A DNA stretch of 45,334 bases from Oscillatoria sp. HE19RPO. Lineage in GTDB: Bacteria > Cyanobacteriota > Cyanobacteriia > Cyanobacteriales > Laspinemataceae. Within the stretch, counting starts at the first letter, position 1. Every line of letters starts with the position of its first letter. The translations under genes were made by a program, and so were the position numbers. This document shows, in pieces, positions 35,384-45,331 of this stretch. The notes under the pieces are model-generated. The model saw only the letters and a list, made by a program, of their open reading frames with translations, made no database searches and was not told where the DNA came from. The stretch is from assembly GCF_024220515.1 (NCBI RefSeq), contig NZ_JAMXOT010000050.1, forward strand, positions 1 through 45,334, written 5' to 3'.

Positions 35384-35603
35384 ATGCAGTTAATCGTAGG
35401 GCAAATCACCATAAAGGAGGGCAACTTTTGGCAATCTTTTATCAATCTCCCCCTCCAGATAGATGGCAACCTTGGACCCTCTCAACCCCTGGAGTCTGGT
35501 GTCAACCCCCTTTCCTCCCTGGATTTCTTCTATTTAGTTAGAATAGCCAATGGGAAAACCCAGGGGAGACAATGACAATAGAATAGCCAAGCTTGAGGCA
35601 TTC

Positions 35604-36341
35604 ATGAAACAAATCCTACTGGCGATCGCCTTCTGGGTAACCAGCGCAATTCCCCTGCTTGCTGAGAACCCCCAGCACCTGCAACAACTCTTCAATACCC
35701 GAGACTGTCGCAACTGCGAACTCAGCGGCATCAACCTCAGCGGGGCCAACCTCACCGGCGTCAACCTCAGCGGGGCCAATCTGAACGGGGCCAATCTCAG
35801 CGGGGCCAATCTGAACGGGGCCAATCTTAACGGGGCCTCTCTCCTCGATGCCAACCTGATTGGGGCCAATCTCAGCAGGGCCTCTTTAATCGTCACCAAC
35901 CTCAGTGGTGCAATTTTGCATGAAGCTAACTTAAGGGATGCGGATTTATATGGGGCGATCGCCGCTGATGCCGAATTCAACTTCGTGAACCTCGTTGGGG
36001 CCTCTCTCCCCAAAGCCAATCTTTATCTCTGCGATTTCACCGAAGCGGACCTCTCCACCGCCAACCTCGAAGGGGCCAACCTCGAACGCGCCGACTTAAC
36101 CGACGCCAAACTCCGGAATACCATCCTGATTGACGCCTCCCTCTGTCGCGCCATCATGCCCGATGGTTCTGTTTCGGAAATCGGTTGTCCCCCAGCTGAA
36201 CCGGTGGCTGAACCGGCGGCTGAACCCCCACCTGAACCGACACCTGAACCGGCGGCTGAACCCACTGCTGAACCTGCGCCTACCCCCACAGCGCCAACCC
36301 TTCCGCCACCGCCACCCCCGCCACCGCCAGTCACCCGGTAA
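35604..36341 (+). CDS. Secreted pentapeptide-repeat protein with Pro-rich tail
   Basis: From ATG 35604 the 245-residue protein has a signal peptide (MKQILLAIAFWVTSAIPLLA), then CRNCELSGINLSGANLTGVN and about 25 A(N/D)LxG pentapeptides (about 40-185) that form a right-handed quadrilateral helix, and a tail of PAEP/PEPT repeats and poly-Pro (about 200-245). Near-identical 15- and 30-base DNA repeats at 35725-35850 code the first repeats, so copy number may vary. It is likely in the periplasm or lumen. It lies just upstream of the CIS genes but has its own terminator, so a link is not shown. Confidence 0.88.
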   Translation: MKQILLAIAFWVTSAIPLLAENPQHLQQLFNTRDCRNCELSGINLSGANLTGVNLSGANLNGANLSGANLNGANLNGASLLDANLIGANLSRASLIVTNLSGAILHEANLRDADLYGAIAADAEFNFVNLVGASLPKANLYLCDFTEADLSTANLEGANLERADLTDAKLRNTILIDASLCRAIMPDGSVSEIGCPPAEPVAEPAAEPPPEPTPEPAAEPTAEPAPTPTAPTLPPPPPPPPPVTR

Positions 36342-36442: not shown

Positions 36443-36474
36443 AAAAACCCCCACCCTTGAGGGTGCCGGTTTTT
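36443..36474 (+). terminator. Terminator between pentapeptide and CIS-associated genes
   Basis: AAAAACC-CCCACCC pairs with GGGTG-CCGGTTTTT around TTGA. The T run follows the stem. Confidence 0.7.
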
Positions 36475-36496: not shown

Positions 36497-37309
36497 ATGA
36501 AAAAAATCAGAACCCTAGTTCAGCGCAAAAGTAAGAAAAAATATCCCCAAGCCTCTACAGTAGAGGGTCAATTTGAGTCGCGTCCTTTCCCCTCACCGAC
36601 GGAAGCATCCCCGGAACAGACGCCGGGGGTCCAAGCCGAATCCGAGGGGAAAAAGCGTCAGGGTTTCAACTTTGCCAATATTGATATCTTTCCACCAGAG
36701 GAATCGGCAACTCCGGGGGTCCAACCCACGATTCAGCGTCAGGGAGGCGATCGCGACGAACCCGAAGCCGAGTTAATCCAGCCCGATACCCAGGCAACCG
36801 CCACTCCTGAGACCCTGCAACTCCAGGAAGACGAAGAACACTCAACCCCAGCCACTGCTCAAACTCCCGAGGAGGAATTAACCGTCAAGGCTGCACCGGA
36901 TACAACCCTTCAGCGAAAAGGCAAAGATAGACAGGCGCAAATAGACGATCGCCATAATATCAGTGACCCCTACATCGAACCCACCCGCTGGTTAGAAACC
37001 CTCAAGCGGGAACGAGTCGCGGATTTGTTCCGCACCCCTGGGGGATTAGACGGTCATGTTCAACAGATCCAAATGGAAGTCAACCGGCTAATTTCAGACC
37101 GCAATCGGCGCAAATTAGAAGGTCAAACCGGGGAAGAAGTTACGCAATATACAACCGCCTTAAATACCTTGCGAAATGCCCTGATTGCCAGTGCCAAAGC
37201 TGCCGAATTTGATTTTGCCAAATTTGGGATTACCTTTGCCCCCCTAGGCTCCGACCTTTATCTCGAATGTGACCAGGGTCAGGTCAAAGTGGATGGCAAG
37301 CCCGTTTAA
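36497..37309 (+). CDS. CIS-locus protein with QR motifs, candidate cargo or accessory
   Basis: The 270-residue protein starts at ATG 36497 with a strong AGGAGGAG site. The first 150 residues are disordered and low-complexity with repeated QR(K/Q) motifs (LVQRKSKKK, PTIQRQGG, TTLQRKGK) and a FNFANIDIFPPEE segment; these resemble the N-termini of cyanobacterial eCIS-associated DUF4157-type proteins. The C-terminal 120 residues are helical (RWLETLKRERVADLF, VQQIQMEVNRLISDRNRRKL) and end in a small beta part. No toxin active site is seen. A loaded or spike-associated protein is the best inference. Confidence 0.6.
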   Translation: MKKIRTLVQRKSKKKYPQASTVEGQFESRPFPSPTEASPEQTPGVQAESEGKKRQGFNFANIDIFPPEESATPGVQPTIQRQGGDRDEPEAELIQPDTQATATPETLQLQEDEEHSTPATAQTPEEELTVKAAPDTTLQRKGKDRQAQIDDRHNISDPYIEPTRWLETLKRERVADLFRTPGGLDGHVQQIQMEVNRLISDRNRRKLEGQTGEEVTQYTTALNTLRNALIASAKAAEFDFAKFGITFAPLGSDLYLECDQGQVKVDGKPV

Positions 37310-37350
37310 GCCCAGCCCAGGCAATGCCGTGCCAGTTTACTTTGCGGGGG

Positions 37351-37560
37351 TTAAATGCCCGGAATTTCCGATAACTTTGACTCTAGTTCTTCGACCTTAA
37401 ACTGGGTCGCTTCCATCCATTCCTCCGTTGTAAAATCATATCCATCTTGACGAGCCATCGCGACTAATTTCTCTAAACTGGGAGCAGAATTATATTTTTC
37501 TTTAAGGGAAGGATCGGCTTGAACTGCTCTAAATAATCGAACAACTTCCGGGAGCGCCAT
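37351..37560 (-). CDS. Nif11-domain small protein
   Basis: The 69-residue protein from ATG 37560 (GGAGGA upstream; TTG 37575 less likely) has the Nif11 pattern: VVRLFRAVQADPSLKEKYNS, a short loop and LVAMARQDGYDFTTEEWMEA. There is no Gly-Gly leader end or Cys-rich core, so it is not a RiPP precursor. It is antisense within an otherwise plus-strand CIS locus, between the cargo-like and pseudokinase genes. Confidence 0.8.
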   Translation of the reverse strand: MALPEVVRLFRAVQADPSLKEKYNSAPSLEKLVAMARQDGYDFTTEEWMEATQFKVEELESKLSEIPGI

Positions 37561-37647
37561 TTGAGATTCCTCCAAACATTCACTATCAGGCGGTCAACTG
37601 AAACATTCCCTTAAATTCTAAAACAACTTTTAAAAAATAACCAGATT

Positions 37648-40161
37648 ATGTCTAAAGAAGTTGGCAAAAAATTAGCCCAGGAAGCGGGTAGCCGAGAAAT
37701 CAGTCGCATCATCATGCGGGGTTCCTCCGTGAAAATGGGCATGAAGAATCGCCTGTTCCGATTTGTCCCCGCTCGATTTCAATGGGTGATTCCCTTCGCC
37801 CAGCAAAACTTAAAAATTAAACCCCCCAAACTGCCGGAATTAAAATTTAAGCTGCCGGGAAGATTTCGTCAAAACCAAAATAGTGAGAAACAGTCGCAGC
37901 AACTCGCCCCAGAAATTGAAATAGGGACAGTACCAGAGGTTATTCAACTGGTTCAACCCCTGTATTCAAAGTATGATTGTGTCCGAGGAAATCCTTTAAG
38001 CTGCGAAGTGGCTCAACAGACCCTGGAGGCAAAATCCCAAGCCAAATATTGCAGACAATGTGGGTTTCCGGTTCCCTTAGCACCGGAAACCAAAATTCGA
38101 GGCGATCGCGGAACTTACCAAATTGAAAAATTGCTGCGCCATCGCGGAATGGGACGGCTGTATGAAGCGATCCAACTCAGCGATCGCCAACCCGTCATCC
38201 TCAAAGAATATGTCTTACCCAAACGCTATTTTAACTCCGAAGAAATTCGCCAGCGCAAAGACTTATTTCGGTTAGTCGGTGGGATTAATTTAGCCGATGG
38301 TCGCATCCAGGACCAGCGGCTGATTTCCCCCTGGGAGGCAGTCGCCCCCTTACGAGAAGAACGCTGCTATCTCGTCACCAAAGGTCAAATCGACGCTTTC
38401 CCCACCCTGTCCAGCTACCTCTTAGAAACCGGACCCTTTACTAGCCCCCAAGTCCGCCAAGTTCTCGACCAAGTATTACAAAGCTTAGAGTTTCTCCATG
38501 AGCAGAAATTTCGTCTGCGTTCCGGTGCGCTGAAACAGGGAATTATTCATGGAAACCTCAGTTTAGATAGCCTAATTTTTGTCCCCAATGTTCAAGGATT
38601 TTTTATTTACTTATGCGATTTAGCTCTCTGGGAAAATTTTGGTCAAGCCCTGTTGTCTGACTCTACTTATTCATCTCCCGGACAAGATTTAAAAGCCTTA
38701 GGATATATTGCCTTTTATCTATTAGTTGGCCACACCTTCAACCCGCAAACGGAACAGGAACTCGACCCCAGGATAGAGGACGATTGGCCTTTGGGCGTTC
38801 ACCTTGGACTGAAAGACTTTATTTTAAACTTAATTGGACTGGGAACTCAAAAATTTGAAACCGCTCAAGTGGCGCGGCAAACCCTGCTAAAATTATCCGG
38901 GGAATGGTGGATCGGCGATGGCAGCGTGATTCCCTCGGGAACACCGGAAACAGTTATTGTGAAAACCCTTGAAAAAAAACGCCGTCAACGCACCCGAATT
39001 TTAGCCTTTTTATTGGGGATTTTGGGTTTACTATTACTGGCCCTGTTAATTTGGTGGGCAATGGTGACTCGGCAGCAAAAAGCTATGGCAAAAGACCCGG
39101 TTTGTTGTATTGACAAAGTAGCCAGTATTCCCCTGGGAAAGTTTACTTATACCGCATCAGTAAATGGCACTTGGAGTTATGTCCTCCAGCAACCGAATTT
39201 AATTGCCCCGGGCAGAACATTAGAGCAAGACTTGCAACAACGCCTCCAACCCGAAGACCCCAGCGAACCCCCGAAATACACCTTTCGCTATGTACCCGAA
39301 CCCTCTTCAACCGAGGCGATCGCCAAGGTTTTATCCGGAGAAACGGACTTTGCTATTACCAATTTAGCCAATGCTCGCACCGCCTACGATAATTTAATTC
39401 ATACTCAAATTGGCTATCGAGAATTTGCCTACGATGGCATTGTCGTTTTCGTTTCCTTCAGCTATTCTCGGCGAGAAAATGGCCTCCCCCAACGGTTAAA
39501 TGGGAGCATTACTTTCGAGCAATTACGGCAACTTTATACGGGAAAAATTACCAATTGGCAAGAAGTAGGCGGTCCTAATCTGCCCGTCAAACTCTATATT
39601 CCTAATGAAGAAGAAGCTTTGCGAATCTTTGAACAGCGCGTGCTCAAAGATGAACGGGCGATCGCTGAATTTCACAACCTCCTGAGAGCCCAAACTACCG
39701 GGGATAGTTTAGTCAGAATTCCAGCCACAATTACCCCACTGTCTACCTTCAATATGCTGCGAACCGTCATCCGAGATTTTGAGGATAGAAATATCGGTAG
39801 TATTGGATTTGCCACCTTGAGTAAAGTCTTTGGACAATGTTCCGTTTATCCCCTCGCCTTAAGTCAGGGAAACCAACCTCCAGTTTCTCCCTTAGTTAGA
39901 AATCTGGATAACCAACCGATTTCTCCCCTCACCGACTTGTGTAATAATAAAGGCAGTTATCGCCCGAATGTGACCGCTTTTTCCCAAAATCACTATCCCT
40001 TAGCCTATTCTTTGGCGGTGATTTATCCCCGGGACAATCGTCTCCCCTCCGTCGGAGAAAAATTTGCCGAAATTATCACCACCTTAGAAGTTCAAAACCT
40101 ACTCGATCGCGCGGGACTCATTCCAATTTACCGAGAATCTGCGCCCTCGGGAGTTCCATAA
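37648..40161 (+). CDS. Zinc-ribbon/pseudokinase - TM - PstS-like fusion protein in the CIS locus
   Basis: The 837-residue protein has: a basic N-terminus (1-75); four Cys (about 111, 119, 135, 138; CRQCGFPVP) of a zinc ribbon; a Ser/Thr-kinase-like domain (about 150-420) with VILKEYV (Lys 186), HGN at 301-303 in place of HRD, and CDLALWEN in place of DFG; a single membrane helix at 451-473 (LAFLLGILGLLLLALLIWWA); and a PstS-like periplasmic-binding domain (about 485-830) with PEPSSTEAIAKVLSGETDFA and the PstS hallmark ITFEQLRQLYTGKITNWQEV. The catalytic Asp of HRD is missing, so it is likely a pseudokinase. One side faces the cytosol, the other the periplasm or thylakoid lumen. It may sense phosphate or stress and act with the CIS; this is inference from context. 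Confidence 0.8.
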   Translation: MSKEVGKKLAQEAGSREISRIIMRGSSVKMGMKNRLFRFVPARFQWVIPFAQQNLKIKPPKLPELKFKLPGRFRQNQNSEKQSQQLAPEIEIGTVPEVIQLVQPLYSKYDCVRGNPLSCEVAQQTLEAKSQAKYCRQCGFPVPLAPETKIRGDRGTYQIEKLLRHRGMGRLYEAIQLSDRQPVILKEYVLPKRYFNSEEIRQRKDLFRLVGGINLADGRIQDQRLISPWEAVAPLREERCYLVTKGQIDAFPTLSSYLLETGPFTSPQVRQVLDQVLQSLEFLHEQKFRLRSGALKQGIIHGNLSLDSLIFVPNVQGFFIYLCDLALWENFGQALLSDSTYSSPGQDLKALGYIAFYLLVGHTFNPQTEQELDPRIEDDWPLGVHLGLKDFILNLIGLGTQKFETAQVARQTLLKLSGEWWIGDGSVIPSGTPETVIVKTLEKKRRQRTRILAFLLGILGLLLLALLIWWAMVTRQQKAMAKDPVCCIDKVASIPLGKFTYTASVNGTWSYVLQQPNLIAPGRTLEQDLQQRLQPEDPSEPPKYTFRYVPEPSSTEAIAKVLSGETDFAITNLANARTAYDNLIHTQIGYREFAYDGIVVFVSFSYSRRENGLPQRLNGSITFEQLRQLYTGKITNWQEVGGPNLPVKLYIPNEEEALRIFEQRVLKDERAIAEFHNLLRAQTTGDSLVRIPATITPLSTFNMLRTVIRDFEDRNIGSIGFATLSKVFGQCSVYPLALSQGNQPPVSPLVRNLDNQPISPLTDLCNNKGSYRPNVTAFSQNHYPLAYSLAVIYPRDNRLPSVGEKFAEIITTLEVQNLLDRAGLIPIYRESAPSGVP

Positions 40162-40180
40162 AAAAAAGGATGAAGGAGTA

Positions 40181-40226
40181 GGGTGGGCAATGCCCACCAA
40201 CACAGAAAGGTGGGCATTGCCCACCC
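40181..40226. repeat. Perfect 18-bp inverted repeat
   Basis: GGGTGGGCAATGCCCACC (40181-40198) and its exact complement (40209-40226) are 10 bases apart. Each arm is itself nearly palindromic. It is in the gap between the fusion gene and the tube gene and may act as a terminator or processing stem. Confidence 0.85.
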
Positions 40227-40371
40227 TACAATTTCTTCTAATCCAAATTAGTCTAGGGAAAAGGGTGAAGTTCGACCTTTGTCTAGTATCCACAACCCTC
40301 CAACAACCCTAAACTGAGCTATAGTTTTGGGGCCTCAATGTGTCACCAAATCAAAGGGGAGTCATTAATTC

Positions 40372-40938
40372 ATGACGAAACAAAATCAGACGGAAACCCA
40401 CGGACTGAATTATATTGCAGCCAATCGCTTTTATGTGGAGATGCAGGAAACTAACTCCATCTCCGCTTGTTTTAGCGAATGTTCGGGGTTGAGCGTGACG
40501 GTTAACTATGACACCTATTTTGAAGGGGGAGTCAACAACCAACAGCGAATTATCCTGGGAAACACCCAATTTTCAGAAGTCACCCTCAAACGAGGGCTAA
40601 CCAATGATGCCGCCTTTTGGGGTTGGGCATCGCGAATGCTGACCAAAATCAGTCCGGATAATGCCGCGAGTCCCCAGCGTCGGAATATTAATATTTTACT
40701 ATTTAATACCGCCGGAGAAACGATTCAATGTTGGACCCTAGTCGGGGCGGTTCCCGTTGCCTGGAGAGCACCGGCATTAAGGGCAGATGCGGCAACGGTA
40801 GCCATTGAAGAGTTATCTTTGGCTTATGAAGGGTTAAATGTTTCGGTGGATACGAACCCTGGTGGCAGTGGCAATGCTCTCGGTGGCGGTGGTAAAATTC
40901 ACCCGAGTGGCAGGGGTGCTGGTGGGTTCTTTATTTAG
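40372..40938 (+). CDS. CIS inner-tube protein (T4 gp19-like)
   Basis: The 188-residue protein has the gp19/Afp-tube pattern: NRFYVEMQETNSISACFSEC, SGLSVTVNYDTYFEGGVNN, ILGNTQFSEVTLKRGLTND and FWGWASRM, then a C-terminal CWTLVGAVPVAWRAPALRAD, VAIEELSLAYEGL. This family stacks in rings to form the needle of contractile injection systems. A Gly/Ser-rich tail (about 160-188) is unusual, and suggests a baseplate-side or initiator tube paralogue. GGGGAG precedes the ATG. Confidence 0.92.
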   Translation: MTKQNQTETHGLNYIAANRFYVEMQETNSISACFSECSGLSVTVNYDTYFEGGVNNQQRIILGNTQFSEVTLKRGLTNDAAFWGWASRMLTKISPDNAASPQRRNINILLFNTAGETIQCWTLVGAVPVAWRAPALRADAATVAIEELSLAYEGLNVSVDTNPGGSGNALGGGGKIHPSGRGAGGFFI

Positions 40939-40945
40939 GGGGTAA

Positions 40946-41923
40946 ATGATGGTAGAAGCTGTGGAGAATTATGGGGAGGAACCGGGCGATCGCAGTCGCC
41001 TTGCGGGGTTGAAACCTCTGGGAATTAACAAGCCTTTTTTGCCCCATCAACCCCTGGGACAAAAACCTTTTGAACCGCAATTTTTAAAATCCATTGCCCG
41101 GGAATCTTTAACGAGTTTTGAGTTAGAACTGGCGATCGCATCCGGTGAGGAGGAAGGGGAGTATCTCAATTTTGAAAAGAGACCTAACCCCCCAGCCCCC
41201 TTCCCTAACAGGGAAGGGGGAGAAAGAGATTTATTTCCCCCTTCCCTCACAGAGGAAAAGAGACCTAACCCCCCAGCCCCCTTCCCTCTGAGGGAAGGGG
41301 GAGAAAGAGATGTATTTCCCCCTTCCCTCTTAGGGGAGGGGGGCAGGGGGGAGAGGTCCGATCGGGTTTTAGACAAAATTGCGATCGCCACCAAAGCAGG
41401 ACAACCCTTGGGACAGTGGCATTCCATCGGCGATCGGCAAACCCAACGTACCCTGTCTGCAAATCCCTCCCCTCAACTCCCCCTCACCCTCTCCTTAGAA
41501 GAGATTCCCGCAAATTTTGCTCAACTGTCCGCCTTAACCCCCTTCAATAGTCCTCCCTTAGATGTGGGAATCGCTGCTACAACCGACTCCATGCCAACCG
41601 CTTGGACGAATTTGGAAGACTTACTCACCCAAACCGCCCAAATCGATACCGATGGGGAATTTGTGTTAACCCCCTGGGGAGTACAACGAGAGACCCCTCC
41701 AGAACCCAAAGGCGATCGGTCCCCCGTCCCTGCCCAAAATCCCCCCGACTATTCCGATCCTAGAAGTCGAGAAGTCACCATCACCGCCCTGGGATATGGA
41801 CCCACACCGGAACCGGAAAACTTAGAGATTTTAGCCCGAAAAGTTTACGATTTGATTAAACAGCGCCTAACCATTGATCGCGAACGGAATGGGGGTCGGT
41901 ATTCTCGGCGATCGCCCTGGTAA
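40946..41923 (+). CDS. CIS-associated protein with an internal coding repeat insertion
   Basis: The 325-residue protein starts 8 bases after the tube gene and is therefore probably translated with it. The N-terminus (GLKPLGINKPFLPHQPLGQ) and the C-terminus (ITALGYGPTPEPENLEILAR, KVYDLIKQRLTIDRERNGGR) look ordered; the last 50 residues carry a helix. Between, residues about 77-138 are coded by intergenic-type DNA repeats (41176-41358) and read RPNPPAPFPNREGGERD twice. Family not recognised by me; by position it may be an adaptor between tube and baseplate, like small Afp/PVC proteins. Confidence 0.72.
   Translation: MMVEAVENYGEEPGDRSRLAGLKPLGINKPFLPHQPLGQKPFEPQFLKSIARESLTSFELELAIASGEEEGEYLNFEKRPNPPAPFPNREGGERDLFPPSLTEEKRPNPPAPFPLREGGERDVFPPSLLGEGGRGERSDRVLDKIAIATKAGQPLGQWHSIGDRQTQRTLSANPSPQLPLTLSLEEIPANFAQLSALTPFNSPPLDVGIAATTDSMPTAWTNLEDLLTQTAQIDTDGEFVLTPWGVQRETPPEPKGDRSPVPAQNPPDYSDPRSREVTITALGYGPTPEPENLEILARKVYDLIKQRLTIDRERNGGRYSRRSPW
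41176..41358. repeat. Intergenic-type repeat inside a coding region
   Basis: GAGACCTAACCCCCCAGCCC and CCTTCCCT...AGGGAAGGGGGAG are present twice in frame, with a third partial unit CCTTCCCTCTTAGGGGAGG. The same repeat, in reverse, lies in the leader at 27601-27650. Confidence 0.85.
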
Positions 41924-41965
41924 ATGTAGTATTTAATGCCGTATTCATAATAAGGAAAAACCGCC

Positions 41966-42439
41966 ATGCCTGGTAACAACGTTGCCTCCGGGAAACTCGA
42001 AAAAGCAAAACTAATTTCCCAAGAAAGCGACACCATCGAATTCATGTTCAACCCCACCGAACTGGTATTCGACCACTCTATTAGCGTCAATCCCAGTCGA
42101 GGTGCGCGGACCAGTTCCGGATTATCCAAAGTCAGCTTTGCCCATCCCGAACCTTGCACCCTCACCATTAGTAACATCATCTTTGACACCTACGAAACCG
42201 GCACCAGCATCCTCCCCTCTATCAATCTGCTCAAACAAGCGGTCAGTTTTGCCACCAAAGGAACTGCCGCCAAAAAACGTCCTCCCACCTATATTTTTGC
42301 CTGGGGACAACAACAATATATGCGCTGTTTCGTCACCCGACTCAGCTATCGATTAACCCGCTTTTTACCCGATGGCACTCCCGTACAAGCGCGAGTGGAT
42401 TTGACCCTAACTGAAGTGGATAAGGCAACTGGGAAGTAG
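41966..42439 (+). CDS. CIS baseplate hub/tube-adaptor protein (CIS_tube N-domain, Afp7-like without LysM)
   Basis: The 157-residue protein has KLEKAKLISQESDTIEFMFNPTELVF, SKVSFAHPEPCTLTISNIIF, FDTYETGTSI and PPTYIFAWGQQQYMRCFVTRLSYRLTRF, the pattern of the CIS tube-protein N-terminal domain (PF19266 family) found in Afp7-type proteins that link tube and spike. A C-terminal LysM domain, usual in longer relatives, is absent. AAGGA precedes the ATG. It is followed by a repeat-filled gap before the spike gene. Confidence 0.9.
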   Translation: MPGNNVASGKLEKAKLISQESDTIEFMFNPTELVFDHSISVNPSRGARTSSGLSKVSFAHPEPCTLTISNIIFDTYETGTSILPSINLLKQAVSFATKGTAAKKRPPTYIFAWGQQQYMRCFVTRLSYRLTRFLPDGTPVQARVDLTLTEVDKATGK

Positions 42440-42947
42440 GGGAGATGGAAGAGACTTACAAGAGTAGGTTTTTATTTCCGGTCCCCTCCCCTTGGCAAGG
42501 CTATGCGTTACTCACATATTTCTTAACATTCTCTAAGCCTTGCCAGTCAAGGGTTTTCGCCATTGGCTTCACAAATCTTAACTGAGGGCTTGTTGAGAAT
42601 CAACCTAATTTATTGACAAGAGGTAACGAGAGCATAAGGGTTGAGCGAATGCTCATCAATTGTTAAGAAAGATGCGAGTAACGCATAGCCTTGGCAAGGG
42701 GAGGGTTAGGGTGGGGTCCACCCAGTTCGCAAAAACACCACTTTTGATAGCCGGATTTGCAATAGAACCCTGATGGGAAGTAGGGGAGGATGGGGAGGAT
42801 GGGGAAGATGGGGAGGATGGGTGAGACTTACAAGAGTAGGTTTTTATTTCCGGTCCCCTCCCCTTGGCAAGGGGAGGGTTAGGGTGGGGTCCACCCAGTT
42901 CGCAAAAACACGACTTTTGATAGCCGGATTTGCAATGGAACCCTGAT
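42431..42947. repeat. Tandem duplication of a repeat unit, one copy with a MITE
   Basis: Copy A (42431-42774) and copy B (42775-42947) share GAGACTTACAAGAGTAGGTT, CGGTCCCCTCCCCTTGGCAA, CACCCAGTTCGCAAAAACAC and GATAGCCGGATTTGCAAT. Copy A holds the 188-base insertion at 42501-42688; copy B has the empty site. Copy A overlaps the end of the preceding gene by 9 bases. Confidence 0.88.
42501..42688. mobile_element. 188-bp MITE with 27-bp terminal inverted repeats
   Basis: The ends CTATGCGTTACTCACATATT (left) and GATGCGAGTAACGCATAG (right) are inverted repeats of 27 bases with two mismatches. CCTTGGCAAGG occurs on both sides (42490-42500, 42689-42699) but once in the empty copy B, giving an 11-bp target duplication. 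This length suits IS4/IS231-type transposases. No reading frame is inside. Confidence 0.85.
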
Positions 42948-42994
42948 TAAGTAAAGGATTAAACCTCTTTCTTATCATCCAAGGAGAAGAGGAC

Positions 42995-43027
42995 CCCACC
43001 CAACCCTCCCCTTGCCAAGGGGAGGGC
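42995..43027. repeat. GGACCCCACCCAACCCTCCC-type repeat
   Basis: Another copy of the CCCTCCCCTTGCCAAGGGGA palindrome family. Bases 43028-43171 after it hold a possible 28-codon frame from ATG 43029 that I do not support and an AT-rich leader for the spike gene. Confidence 0.75.
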
Positions 43028-43171
43028 TATGAACAACCAAAACTTGAAAAAATTACCTCGTAAAAAACCTACCGTTATAAGGATGGGGGAGAATCGGTTG
43101 ATTAGAACTGAATAGCTCTTTTCATTGATTCATTATCATCAGAAATTTATACCAAAATTACATTAAGAACC

Positions 43172-45331
43172 ATGACAGCAATCTCTTACTTAGCTCAACC
43201 TAGCTTAAAAATAGATGGAACCGAGGCGTCTGAACAATTAAGGGCAGATATTATAGAAATCTCCGTAGAAGAAAGCCTTCATCAGCCGGGAATGTTTACC
43301 CTGATGATTAATAATGACTACTTCCCCGGGACCGGAGACCCCTGGGGACATGAAAAATTATTTGCCATTGGTAAATCCATCGAAATTGGGTTTAGTTCTA
43401 GTACCACTGAAGCCCAGGAATTTTCCCAAGGGAAAACCACTGCCAGCCTGTTTAAAGGAGAGATTACCTCCATTGAATGTAGCTTTACCGAAACCTCAGA
43501 AGCTACCATGCTGATTCGCGGGTATGACGTGGGTCATCGGCTGCATCGGGGGAGATATAATCGGTCTTTTCAAAATATGAGCGATACGGATATTCTCAAG
43601 AAAGTGATTGGAGAAGTGGGAATCTCCGGTGGGACTATTGATTCTAGTGGTTCTCCCCATGATTATGTGTTTCAAGAAAACCAAACCAACATGGAATTTC
43701 TGCGGGAACGAGCAACCCGCAATGGATTTGAACTGTTTGTTCAAGATGGAAAACTTAATTTTAGAAAACCCAAAGCAGGCAGTACCTTGGAGTTAAAATG
43801 GTTGCAGGATATCCATAGTTTTAGAGTGCGAGTTTCCAGTAGCGAACAAGTGAGTGCAGTGGAAGTGCGCGGGTGGGATTATAAACAAAAAAAAGCGATT
43901 GTTTCTAAGGCTGAGTCTGCCAAGGTATTAACCAGCACCCAATATCAAGAGGGGAAGAAAACCAGTTCTGCCTTCAATGGTAAACCCTCCAAAGCCACGA
44001 TGATAGTTGTGGATAAACCTGTTTTTAGTAATAAAGAAGCCGATACGATCGCCCAATCTTTGTGCAACGAATTAGGCGGAGAATTTGTCCAAGCTGATGC
44101 TGTTGCCGAAGGCAATCCCGACATCCGCACCGGCAAACTGGTCCAATTTGCCGACATGGGAAAATATAGCGGCAAATACTACATTACCGAAGCCCGTCAC
44201 CTTTATCAAGATGGCATTTATACCACGGAATTTAGTGTCCGAGGATTGCGGGCGGATGATATTGCCACCACCGTCGCACCGGAAACTCGACTAGAACCGG
44301 GACAAACCATGATGGTGGGAGTGGTATCTAATAATAACGACCCGGATGGGTTAGGACGAGTGCGGGTGAAATTTCCTACCCTGACAGAAGAACATGAAAG
44401 TAATTGGGCGCGGGTGGTGGCGATCGGGGGCGGACCCGATCGCGGATTTGACTGCTTACCCGAAATCAACGACGAAGTGCTGGTTGCCTTTGAACATGGA
44501 GATATTCATCGACCTTATATCATTGGCGGTGTCTGGAATGGCAAAGATAAACCCCCGGAAAAAGTGGCCGAATCCGTCGCCAATGGAAAAGTGCGTCTCA
44601 GAACGATTAAAACTCGTCTCGGTCATAAATTGCAATTTGTCGAAGAAGATAAAGGCAGCAGTAAAAAAGGAATTTATATCGAAACCGTTGACGGAAATAA
44701 ACATAAACTGCATCTGAACGATACAGACAAAAAGATAGAAATGAAAACCAGCGGTTCTCATTATCTGTTGTTAGATGATAAAAACAAAAAACTCGAAGCC
44801 AAAACCAATAGCGGTCATACCGTCTTAATGGATGATAATGGCAGCAAAAAAATAGATGTCACCTCCGTCGGAGACATGAACGTGAAAACCGGGAGTTCGG
44901 GAAAAACCCGCACCCTCAAAGTCGATGCGGGAGAAATTCAGCTCACCGGCACCACTAAAATCGTGCTGAAAGTGGGCGCGAATCGTATTGAAATATCCAA
45001 TTCGGGGATTAAAATTGATGGCTTAAAAGTCGAAGTGTTGGGAAAAACAGGAATCGAGATTAAATCACCCCTGAAAGTTGACATTAGTGGCGCAACTCAA
45101 GTTAATGTGCAGTCAGCGGTCCAAGTTGGGATTAAAGCCGGGGCCTCGCTGAATGTTCAAGCGGGGGGTTCCTTGGGTCTGCAAGCTGCCGGGTCCCTAA
45201 GTGGCACTGCCGGGGGTTCGGTAAGTTTGACCAGTGGGGGTGCCGCAAGTATTACTTCCGGTGCCGCATTCCAAGTCACTGCCGGTGCCAGTGCCGGGAT
45301 TTTAGCACCCCTGATTCGCCTCAACTGTTGA
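43172..45331 (+). CDS. VgrG/Afp8-like CIS spike protein
   Basis: The 719-residue protein has the order of a VgrG spike: N-terminal gp27-like hub (ISYLAQPSLKIDGTEASEQL, LIRGYDVGHRLHRGRYNRSF, YVFQENQTNMEFLRERATRN, about 1-350), a gp5 OB fold (VGVVSNNNDPDGLGRVRVKF, INDEVLVAFEHGDIHRPYII, about 375-455) and a long beta-helix of short repeats (about 480-719; GTTKIVLKVGANRIEIS, then Ala/Gly/Ser-rich repeats). It ends in RLNC, with stop three bases before the window edge. No enzymatic extension is present. It sits on the tip of the tube and pierces the target or own membrane. Confidence 0.95.
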   Translation: MTAISYLAQPSLKIDGTEASEQLRADIIEISVEESLHQPGMFTLMINNDYFPGTGDPWGHEKLFAIGKSIEIGFSSSTTEAQEFSQGKTTASLFKGEITSIECSFTETSEATMLIRGYDVGHRLHRGRYNRSFQNMSDTDILKKVIGEVGISGGTIDSSGSPHDYVFQENQTNMEFLRERATRNGFELFVQDGKLNFRKPKAGSTLELKWLQDIHSFRVRVSSSEQVSAVEVRGWDYKQKKAIVSKAESAKVLTSTQYQEGKKTSSAFNGKPSKATMIVVDKPVFSNKEADTIAQSLCNELGGEFVQADAVAEGNPDIRTGKLVQFADMGKYSGKYYITEARHLYQDGIYTTEFSVRGLRADDIATTVAPETRLEPGQTMMVGVVSNNNDPDGLGRVRVKFPTLTEEHESNWARVVAIGGGPDRGFDCLPEINDEVLVAFEHGDIHRPYIIGGVWNGKDKPPEKVAESVANGKVRLRTIKTRLGHKLQFVEEDKGSSKKGIYIETVDGNKHKLHLNDTDKKIEMKTSGSHYLLLDDKNKKLEAKTNSGHTVLMDDNGSKKIDVTSVGDMNVKTGSSGKTRTLKVDAGEIQLTGTTKIVLKVGANRIEISNSGIKIDGLKVEVLGKTGIEIKSPLKVDISGATQVNVQSAVQVGIKAGASLNVQAGGSLGLQAAGSLSGTAGGSVSLTSGGAASITSGAAFQVTAGASAGILAPLIRLNC

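Follow-up and report, generated by a model that had tools for sequence, protein, structure and literature searches.

How a bacterium holds, triggers and aims a contractile injection system (CIS) that stays inside the cell is an open question outside Streptomyces and Anabaena. It is raised by a stretch of DNA from the cyanobacterium Oscillatoria sp. HE19RPO (contig NZ_JAMXOT010000050.1, positions 1 to 45,334 of the forward strand), here called the window; genomes, contigs and loci carry labels beginning with G, C and L, respectively. The right-hand end of the window is, judging by its gene content, the head of the baseplate module of a CIS, from Cis5-Cis6-Cis7-Cis8 onward. This run is preceded by a gene encoding a fusion of a kinase-like part, a transmembrane (TM) segment and a PstS-like periplasmic-binding-protein (PBP) domain (837 residues, 37648..40161, + strand). 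The fusion co-occurs with this type of CIS almost always in the genomes surveyed, and it appears somewhat probable, by architectural analogy with the Streptomyces protein CisA, that it acts as a dedicated membrane receptor docking or triggering the particle.

The fusion protein consists of a cysteine motif (C111, C119, C135, C138), a pseudokinase at about 150-420, a TM segment at 451-469 and a PstS-like domain at about 500-827, the latter matching PBP_like_2 over the Pfam cut-off (6e-14). The kinase half lies below the Pfam cut-off in the window protein (0.087), as it does in all seven other fusions scanned (4e-5 to 0.08). A profile made from 16 fusions nevertheless matches solved protein kinases (4eqm at 6.9e-5, positions 150-367) and phosphate-binding proteins (4q8r at 4e-10) in a search of the Protein Data Bank (PDB); these 16 sequences come from the 19 fusion genomes then known, after leaving out three near-copies. 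The "pseudokinase fusion" of the first-pass annotation is thus a real open reading frame (ORF) with a PBP half over the cut-off, and its kinase half is supported by the profile while individually remaining under it. Protein kinases are recognized by the HRD and other motifs. In 16 of 16 fusions HRD is replaced by HGN, the catalytic Asp becoming Asn, and both Lys186 and Asp324 (the DFG position, here DLA) are invariant; the window fusion additionally lacks the catalytic-loop Lys and Asn. Having lost the catalytic Asp of active Hanks-type kinases, the kinase half is classified from its sequence as a pseudokinase.

The only strong TM segment is the one at 451-469, a weaker hydrophobic stretch (309-327) being located inside the kinase-like domain. 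Since seven Lys or Arg are found in the 15 residues before this segment and three in the 15 after it, the protein is predicted to be bitopic, with its kinase half in the cytoplasm and its PBP half on the outside. The outer half contains four cysteines, two of them invariant (731 and 765) and two nearly so (486 and 487), an arrangement that would fit disulfides outside the cytoplasm. An outer half of this type is also found on a caspase-like domain, in a CHAT-TM-PBP_like_2 protein of G053 (L307:1498-3666).

The distribution of the fusion follows that of the CIS. Among 386 genomes from the phylum, the fusion is present in 22 and a strong baseplate J (E below 1e-70, with at most two candidates scored per genome) in 23. 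These sets share 22 genomes, the 23rd being G049; no genome among the 386 has the fusion only, and four more have weak baseplate J matches only and no fusion. The Fisher p of 6e-35 for this overlap is uncorrected for kinship and readable only as "not scattered". Among the 59 nearest genomes, 19 have a strong VgrG of this type (E ≤1.2e-134), 19 have the fusion and 18 have both: G001, assembled in 680 contigs, has the fusion and the sheath but no VgrG, and G049 has the VgrG but no fusion at E 1e-20. Upstream of its tube gene, G049 encodes a 752-residue protein with one TM segment and no Pfam match, the C-terminus of which matches the fusion profile at 3.6e-22 in a search of four proteins. A CHAT-PBP protein scored better in the same search (1.7e-27), so the match is evidence of a PBP-type end and not of a kinase-like part, and the G049 protein is a possible distant relative of the fusion. 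Two genomes with two strong baseplate J genes, G077 and G165, also have two copies of the fusion, one of the G165 copies being truncated. Next to this truncated copy (L291), the response regulator match is split in two and the tube and Pvc16 matches are shortened, and the second CIS copy of G165 is apparently decaying.

Such a distribution bears on the idea that the fusion is an unrelated signaling gene hitchhiking beside CIS genes. Cyanobacteria have many kinases, and related PBP halves are found on other proteins, such as the CHAT-TM-PBP protein of L307, both of which would suit a hitchhiker. However, all 22 fusion genomes of the 386 carry this baseplate J, including G040, G109 and G251, where no structural CIS gene is seen beside the fusion, and in G077 and G165 the two genes are doubled together. 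Hitchhiking is therefore considered improbable.

The genes surrounding the fusion were compared in both surveys, which share G000, G017, G040 and G046 and together provide 37 genomes and 39 fusion copies, leaving out one remnant in G001. A structural CIS gene is located at most 1.5 kb from the fusion in 27 of the 39 copies, and only a response regulator and a histidine kinase (RR and HK) in seven. The tube gene of the type found at 40372 is the nearest query-set gene to the fusion in 21 of the 39. In seven copies the fusion directly follows an HK-RR pair, 49-62 bp past the RR match, and locus L310 shows the same order with a wider gap.

The chief rival to a docking or triggering role is that the fusion would be a regulatory input, with the PBP domain as the sensor of a solute and the pseudokinase steering the HK and the LuxR-type RR that switch on the CIS genes. 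It is consistent with the seven copies placed directly after HK-RR, and with the HK-RR pair that is divergent from Pvc16_N-sheath in the genome of the window and in several relatives (e.g., G004, G009, G012, G017, G023, G050, and G145). Moreover, GerE-type regulators and a histidine kinase are known beside eCIS loci (PMC8213781). The LuxR-type RR and HK found here beside CIS genes resemble that case, with the difference that in several genomes their neighbor is the sheath module or the fusion. On the other hand, a pure regulator would need no place at the head of a Cis5-8 run, and it is the tube gene that is nearest in 21 of the 39 copies. A regulatory input is thus a possible but doubtful explanation.

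Regarding the class of the system, the first-pass annotation assigned it to the eCIS or thylakoid-anchored CIS (tCIS). The relationship to eCIS stands: a single genome holds sheath, tube, VgrG, gp25, baseplate J, an AAA+ ATPase and a Pvc16-type cap, the genes of the eCIS-related CIS superfamily, together with eCIS_core (DUF4157) cargo. The assignment to tCIS does not. In PDB searches, the nearest solved chain for VgrG is 9gtr, which we take to come from the same Streptomyces CIS work as 8bky, 8bl4 and 9gtp, with 197 bits against 109 for Anabaena All3320. The sheath scores 365 bits with a Streptomyces chain and 166 with Anabaena All3325, and baseplate J 406 bits against 22. Both sheath and baseplate J are nearer to Streptomyces than to the lineage I chains in the PDB. 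The tube protein encoded at 40372 does not discriminate, with 7adz as the best match (43.9 bits), followed by Anabaena All3324 (43.6) and Streptomyces (39.9). Chains 8bky, 8bl4 and 9gtp belong to the Streptomyces CIS (PMC10066040, PMC12237407). In a tree of sheath C-domains with 31 rows (rows with fewer than 150 aligned residues excluded), the 12 rows of this cyanobacterial type form one group (100/100), separate from the four rows of Streptomyces and the 15 from other cyanobacterial CIS; the deeper forks are weak. By these sequence comparisons, the system belongs, at a level above the subtypes IIa-IId, to a cyanobacterial clade of the Streptomyces-like lineage II CIS.

The features described as specific for tCIS are an extension of Cis12 (~490 aa), a TM helix in Cis13 and the crown protein Cis19 (PMC8894136). 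The Cis12 extension is missing here, the tail-I protein measuring 372 aa and the corresponding ORFs 331-384 aa in the relatives compared, and the tentative Cis13, a 483-aa protein named P483, has no segment over the hydropathy cut-off. Cis19 (All3314) gave no match in the PDB searches run, none of which was aimed at it. A tCIS anchored to thylakoids as in Anabaena (all3313-3327; PDB 7b5h; PMC8894136) would agree with the cyanobacterial host, with a membrane protein linked to the system, with homologous sheath, tube and spike proteins, among them a sheath matching All3325, and with the slightly higher tube score for All3324. Nevertheless, sheath, VgrG and baseplate J resemble their Streptomyces counterparts far more closely, and neither of the two tCIS features tested was found in the system of the window, which makes membership very improbable; it was rejected on these scores and on the missing Cis12 extension and Cis13 TM helix. 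The term tCIS was also dropped for the CIS of G010, G033, G047 and G053, since the only sheath compared, that of G033, also fits Streptomyces best (371 vs. 159 bits). None of these four genomes has the fusion: matches to the fusion query are limited to the PBP half in G010, G033 and G053, and there is none in G047.

The cytoplasmic CIS of Streptomyces coelicolor (lineage IId; 8bky, 8bl4, 9gtp, 9gtr) is thus the closest solved relative for sheath, VgrG and baseplate J. It shares with the window type a long linker ORF with a similar C-terminus at a like place and a linked bitopic membrane protein, whereas the window-type genes are dispersed over tens of kilobases in relatives and their sheaths form a clade apart (100/100). 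The linked protein in Streptomyces is CisA (SCO4242), a bitopic protein on which in situ contraction and death under stress depend (PMC12237407). As the CisA query, the protein of S. violaceorubidus (L143) was chosen because of its position following the baseplate genes, its TM segment and its length, without comparison to SCO4242; it comprises the last 468 residues of a longer ORF and contains zinc ribbons, a TM segment and an F5/8 type C-like domain (PF25302, 4e-7). This query matched both Streptomyces controls and none of 12 cyanobacterial genomes carrying this CIS. Conversely, the fusion query had no match in four Streptomyces genomes at 1e-10, and CisA is not among the reported matches of the fusion profile. 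Homology between the two proteins was consequently rejected, as no sequence match exists in either direction. What they have in common is a plan: a cytoplasmic N-terminus with Cys motifs, one TM segment, an outer domain of a ligand-binding type and a tie to a Streptomyces-like CIS, with the bitopic, N-in topology of the fusion being predicted. They differ in the outer domain, which is F5/8 type C-like in CisA and PBP-type in the fusion, and in the kinase-like part, for which CisA has no match.

Under the proposed mechanism, the two-component system formed by the HK and the LuxR-type RR probably controls expression of the CIS. The particle would then assemble in the cytoplasm with its eCIS_core cargo, the outer PBP domain of the fusion would sense a ligand, and the fusion would either dock the particle at the membrane, cytoplasmic or thylakoid, or trigger its firing. 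In a broader form, the pseudokinase-TM-PstS-like protein would be an obligate receptor wiring the whole cytoplasmic CIS clade to the membrane, so that a solute or stress signal from outside the cytoplasm decides when the particle docks and fires across the membrane of its own cell; this is put forward tentatively, as slightly less than an even prospect. Gene content, co-occurrence and the loss of the catalytic Asp are observed.

Several points speak against a docking or triggering receptor. Contact of the fusion with the particle, and its location, are conjectural, the HK-RR-fusion order of seven copies suits a role in transcription, and the F5/8 type C-like outer domain of CisA makes the parallel architectural only. 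In five of the 39 copies (G017, G040, G109, G251, and G035), neither a structural CIS gene, an RR nor a clear HK lies within 1.5 kb of the fusion. In G017, with 20 kb examined, eCIS_core-like matches are found 1.6 kb away. The span examined was 20 kb in each of G040, G109 and G251, with 13 kb more in G040 and G109, and 4.2 kb in G035; G040 and G251 gave weak HK matches only, which were not counted. In G276, G374 and G386 the fusion is located about 1 Mb or more from baseplate J. Co-occurrence is inflated by kinship, genes may have been missed when at most two candidates were scored per genome, and other kinds of cyanobacterial CIS exist without the fusion. Finally, no Afp14-type tape-measure protein was recognized among the ORFs searched, although no search was aimed at one.

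The earlier description of the locus as cut by the window end is correct in that the locus stops there. Its cause is an assembly break, because the window is the complete contig C443 of 45,334 bases in the contig listing, from a genome of 7.67 Mb in 511 contigs. A profile search of these contigs gave one sheath and one Phage_base_V match, and therefore the genome probably carries a single CIS. The system is apparently complete, with its genes scattered over the chromosome, as core parts recognized by sequence include tubes, sheath, VgrG, PAAR, gp25, baseplate J and tail I, as well as two Pvc16-type proteins, the ATPase and eCIS_core cargo. It had been suggested that absence of sheath and wedge genes within about 20 kb to the right would leave a decayed phage tail remnant. 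The tube, spike and wedge genes are indeed homologous to phage tails, and the sheath of five relatives lies beyond this 20-kb limit, at 36-45 kb to the right. Yet the CIS parts are long open frames, the genome has wedge genes, a sheath, a cap-like protein, an ATPase and eCIS_core cargo, and no phage head or terminase families were found among the ORFs searched. A phage remnant, ruled out by this gene set and its open frames, is thus given practically no credence.

The remaining parts of the machine are encoded on other contigs. DNA of G004 past the end of VgrG maps to contig C262 of the window genome, where a repeat at the contig end precedes the main match; this match begins where that of C443 stops (query 118 vs. 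120). By this synteny the wedge genes are located immediately to the right, as predicted, on C262. C262 encodes PAAR, gp25, baseplate J, tail I (372 aa) and then P483, which has weak CIS13_fam similarity (2.5e-5, under the cut-off) and DUF4159, with no PDB match at E up to 0.1. It continues with a dCache-HAMP-cNMP protein, a WD40 protein (one hydrophobic segment), an NPCBM_assoc-domain protein (hydrophobic segments), a pentapeptide-like protein and a TPR protein. The dCache-HAMP-cNMP gene (L101:6521-8440) is found among the baseplate-module genes in the window genome and in G004, and is a possible second signal input; in G009 a different 357-aa ORF takes its place. Repeated DNA is found within and beside the locus, at 41170-41350 and 42460-43030 of the window and at the C262 start, and the repeat at the C262 end has many matches across the genome.

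Of the further genes expected to the right, those for the sheath, a cap-like protein and an AAA+ ATPase do exist in the genome, on C466 and C291. Contig C466 (12.2 kb; L007) carries the LuxR-type (GerE) RR, the HK, Pvc16_N, the sheath and three further gp19-type tube genes, besides two short genes (~120 aa) with no Pfam match. C291 encodes a full Pvc16-type (cap-like) protein and the AAA+ ATPase. On C79 there are three eCIS_core cargo proteins (E 4e-33 to 3e-32), two of which match Aspzincin_M35 (one over and one under the cut-off), and an alpha/beta-hydrolase-like protein. In G004, three consecutive methyltransferase genes (L103:12101-15451) separate the HK-RR pair from the genes for cap and ATPase.

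Within the window, the genes named in the first-pass annotation are all present as ORFs, and Pfam supports the tube, CIS_tube and VgrG proteins. All of them, like the further genes given here, are on the + strand. A pentapeptide-repeat protein (35550..36341; PF00805, 1e-43) is encoded upstream, also in G003, G004, G006 and G007; its membership is uncertain, and the pentapeptide-like gene at the far end of the baseplate module is a second one by similarity. The cargo-like protein (36497..37309) counts 270 aa from its ATG at 36497, in an ORF that opens at 36473 and has no Pfam or NCBIfam match in family scans. Its N-terminal F-x(1,2)-RPF motif, selected only after inspecting sequences, is found in five of 169 ORFs of at least 100 aa from nine sources: this ORF, its G004 ortholog and three of the five eCIS_core proteins among them. 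The gene adjoins the fusion in G003, G004, G006 and G007 and, as a weak match, in G012.

After the fusion, a gp19-type tube protein (40372..40938; PF06841 6e-34, TIGR02241 over the cut-off) is nearest to Cis5, the tube adaptor or initiator, with NCBIfam CIS5 (tube adaptor) at 3e-20 and CIS1 at 1e-6, both below the model cut-offs. The principal tube is probably encoded by a gene adjoining the sheath on C466. The gene at 40372 is followed by that of a Cis6-like linker of 325 aa (40946..41923), which has a variable, disordered-looking N-terminal part and a conserved C-terminal helix (LEILARKVYDLIKQRLTIDRER) and no family match over the cut-off in Pfam or NCBIfam. Its C-terminus is common to proteins of 2509 and 1888 aa at the equivalent place in G009 and G050, and in Streptomyces a 1300-aa ORF at the equivalent place ends in a similar helix (L143:2421-6323). 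From 325 aa in the window to 1888 and 2509 aa (L053:3794-9460, L044:2636-10165), it is mainly the terminal helix that is kept, and the linker might serve as a ruler of length or as a tether for cargo. The window protein is lengthened by two copies of the peptide NPPAPFP.REGGE; the G006 ortholog has 271 aa. The run ends with a Cis7-like CIS_tube protein (41966..42439; PF19266, 1e-17) and a Cis8-like, VgrG-related spike (43172..45331; Phage_base_V PF04717 2e-26, Phage_GPD 8e-9, NF033848 VgrG_rel over the cut-off). Gene numbers Cis1-Cis16 follow AFP usage and that of the cited papers. From 40372 onward the order corresponds to that of AFP, namely 5-6-7-8, then 9/10, 11 and 12. The layout, first described as possibly distinct, is therefore less unusual from the tube gene on; its new element is the fusion gene heading the Cis5-8 run.

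The placement of the sheath varies among relatives. In G003, G004, G006, G007 and G009 it lies 36-45 kb downstream of VgrG on the same strand, in G057 the distance is ~93 kb and in G012 1.66 Mb, in G050 it is ~17 kb away on the opposite strand, and in G036 ~6 kb upstream. In G050 and G023, the tube gene comes after a single series of sheath module, HK-RR, Pvc16, ATPase and fusion. Dispersal, as in the genus of the window, is therefore only one layout among several. Three matches to the fusion are located on plasmids, two of them annotated and with a like neighborhood, on ABRG53d (Pseudanabaena sp. ABRG5-3) and pBOCT2 (Brasilonema octagenarum UFV-E1), where the proteins bear the annotations "substrate-binding domain-containing protein" and "serine/threonine protein kinase"; the third, from Kovacikia minuta, is unannotated. 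In L309 (Pseudanabaena) and L310 (pBOCT2), large portions of this type of CIS are plasmid-borne, and one CIS plasmid is typed MPF_T though called non-mobilizable. Plasmid CIS parts may move between cyanobacteria.

Among the papers listed from the open-licence PMC literature, none has by its title and abstract opening a kinase-like or PstS-like membrane partner of a cyanobacterial CIS as its subject, and a paper on hot-spring CIS reports close cisA homologs to be missing from Roseiflexus (PMC12998442). As the system of the window shows, some cyanobacterial CIS differ from tCIS, and the genes of a CIS can scatter over tens of kilobases, so that locus-based surveys could split or miss them. The fusion provides a candidate trigger that, in the surveyed genomes, goes with one CIS clade in nearly every case, and the ligand of its PBP-type domain can be sought directly. 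Should the proposed role prove true, the CisA principle would have been invented twice, here with a ligand pocket that can be identified and a switch of the nucleotide type.

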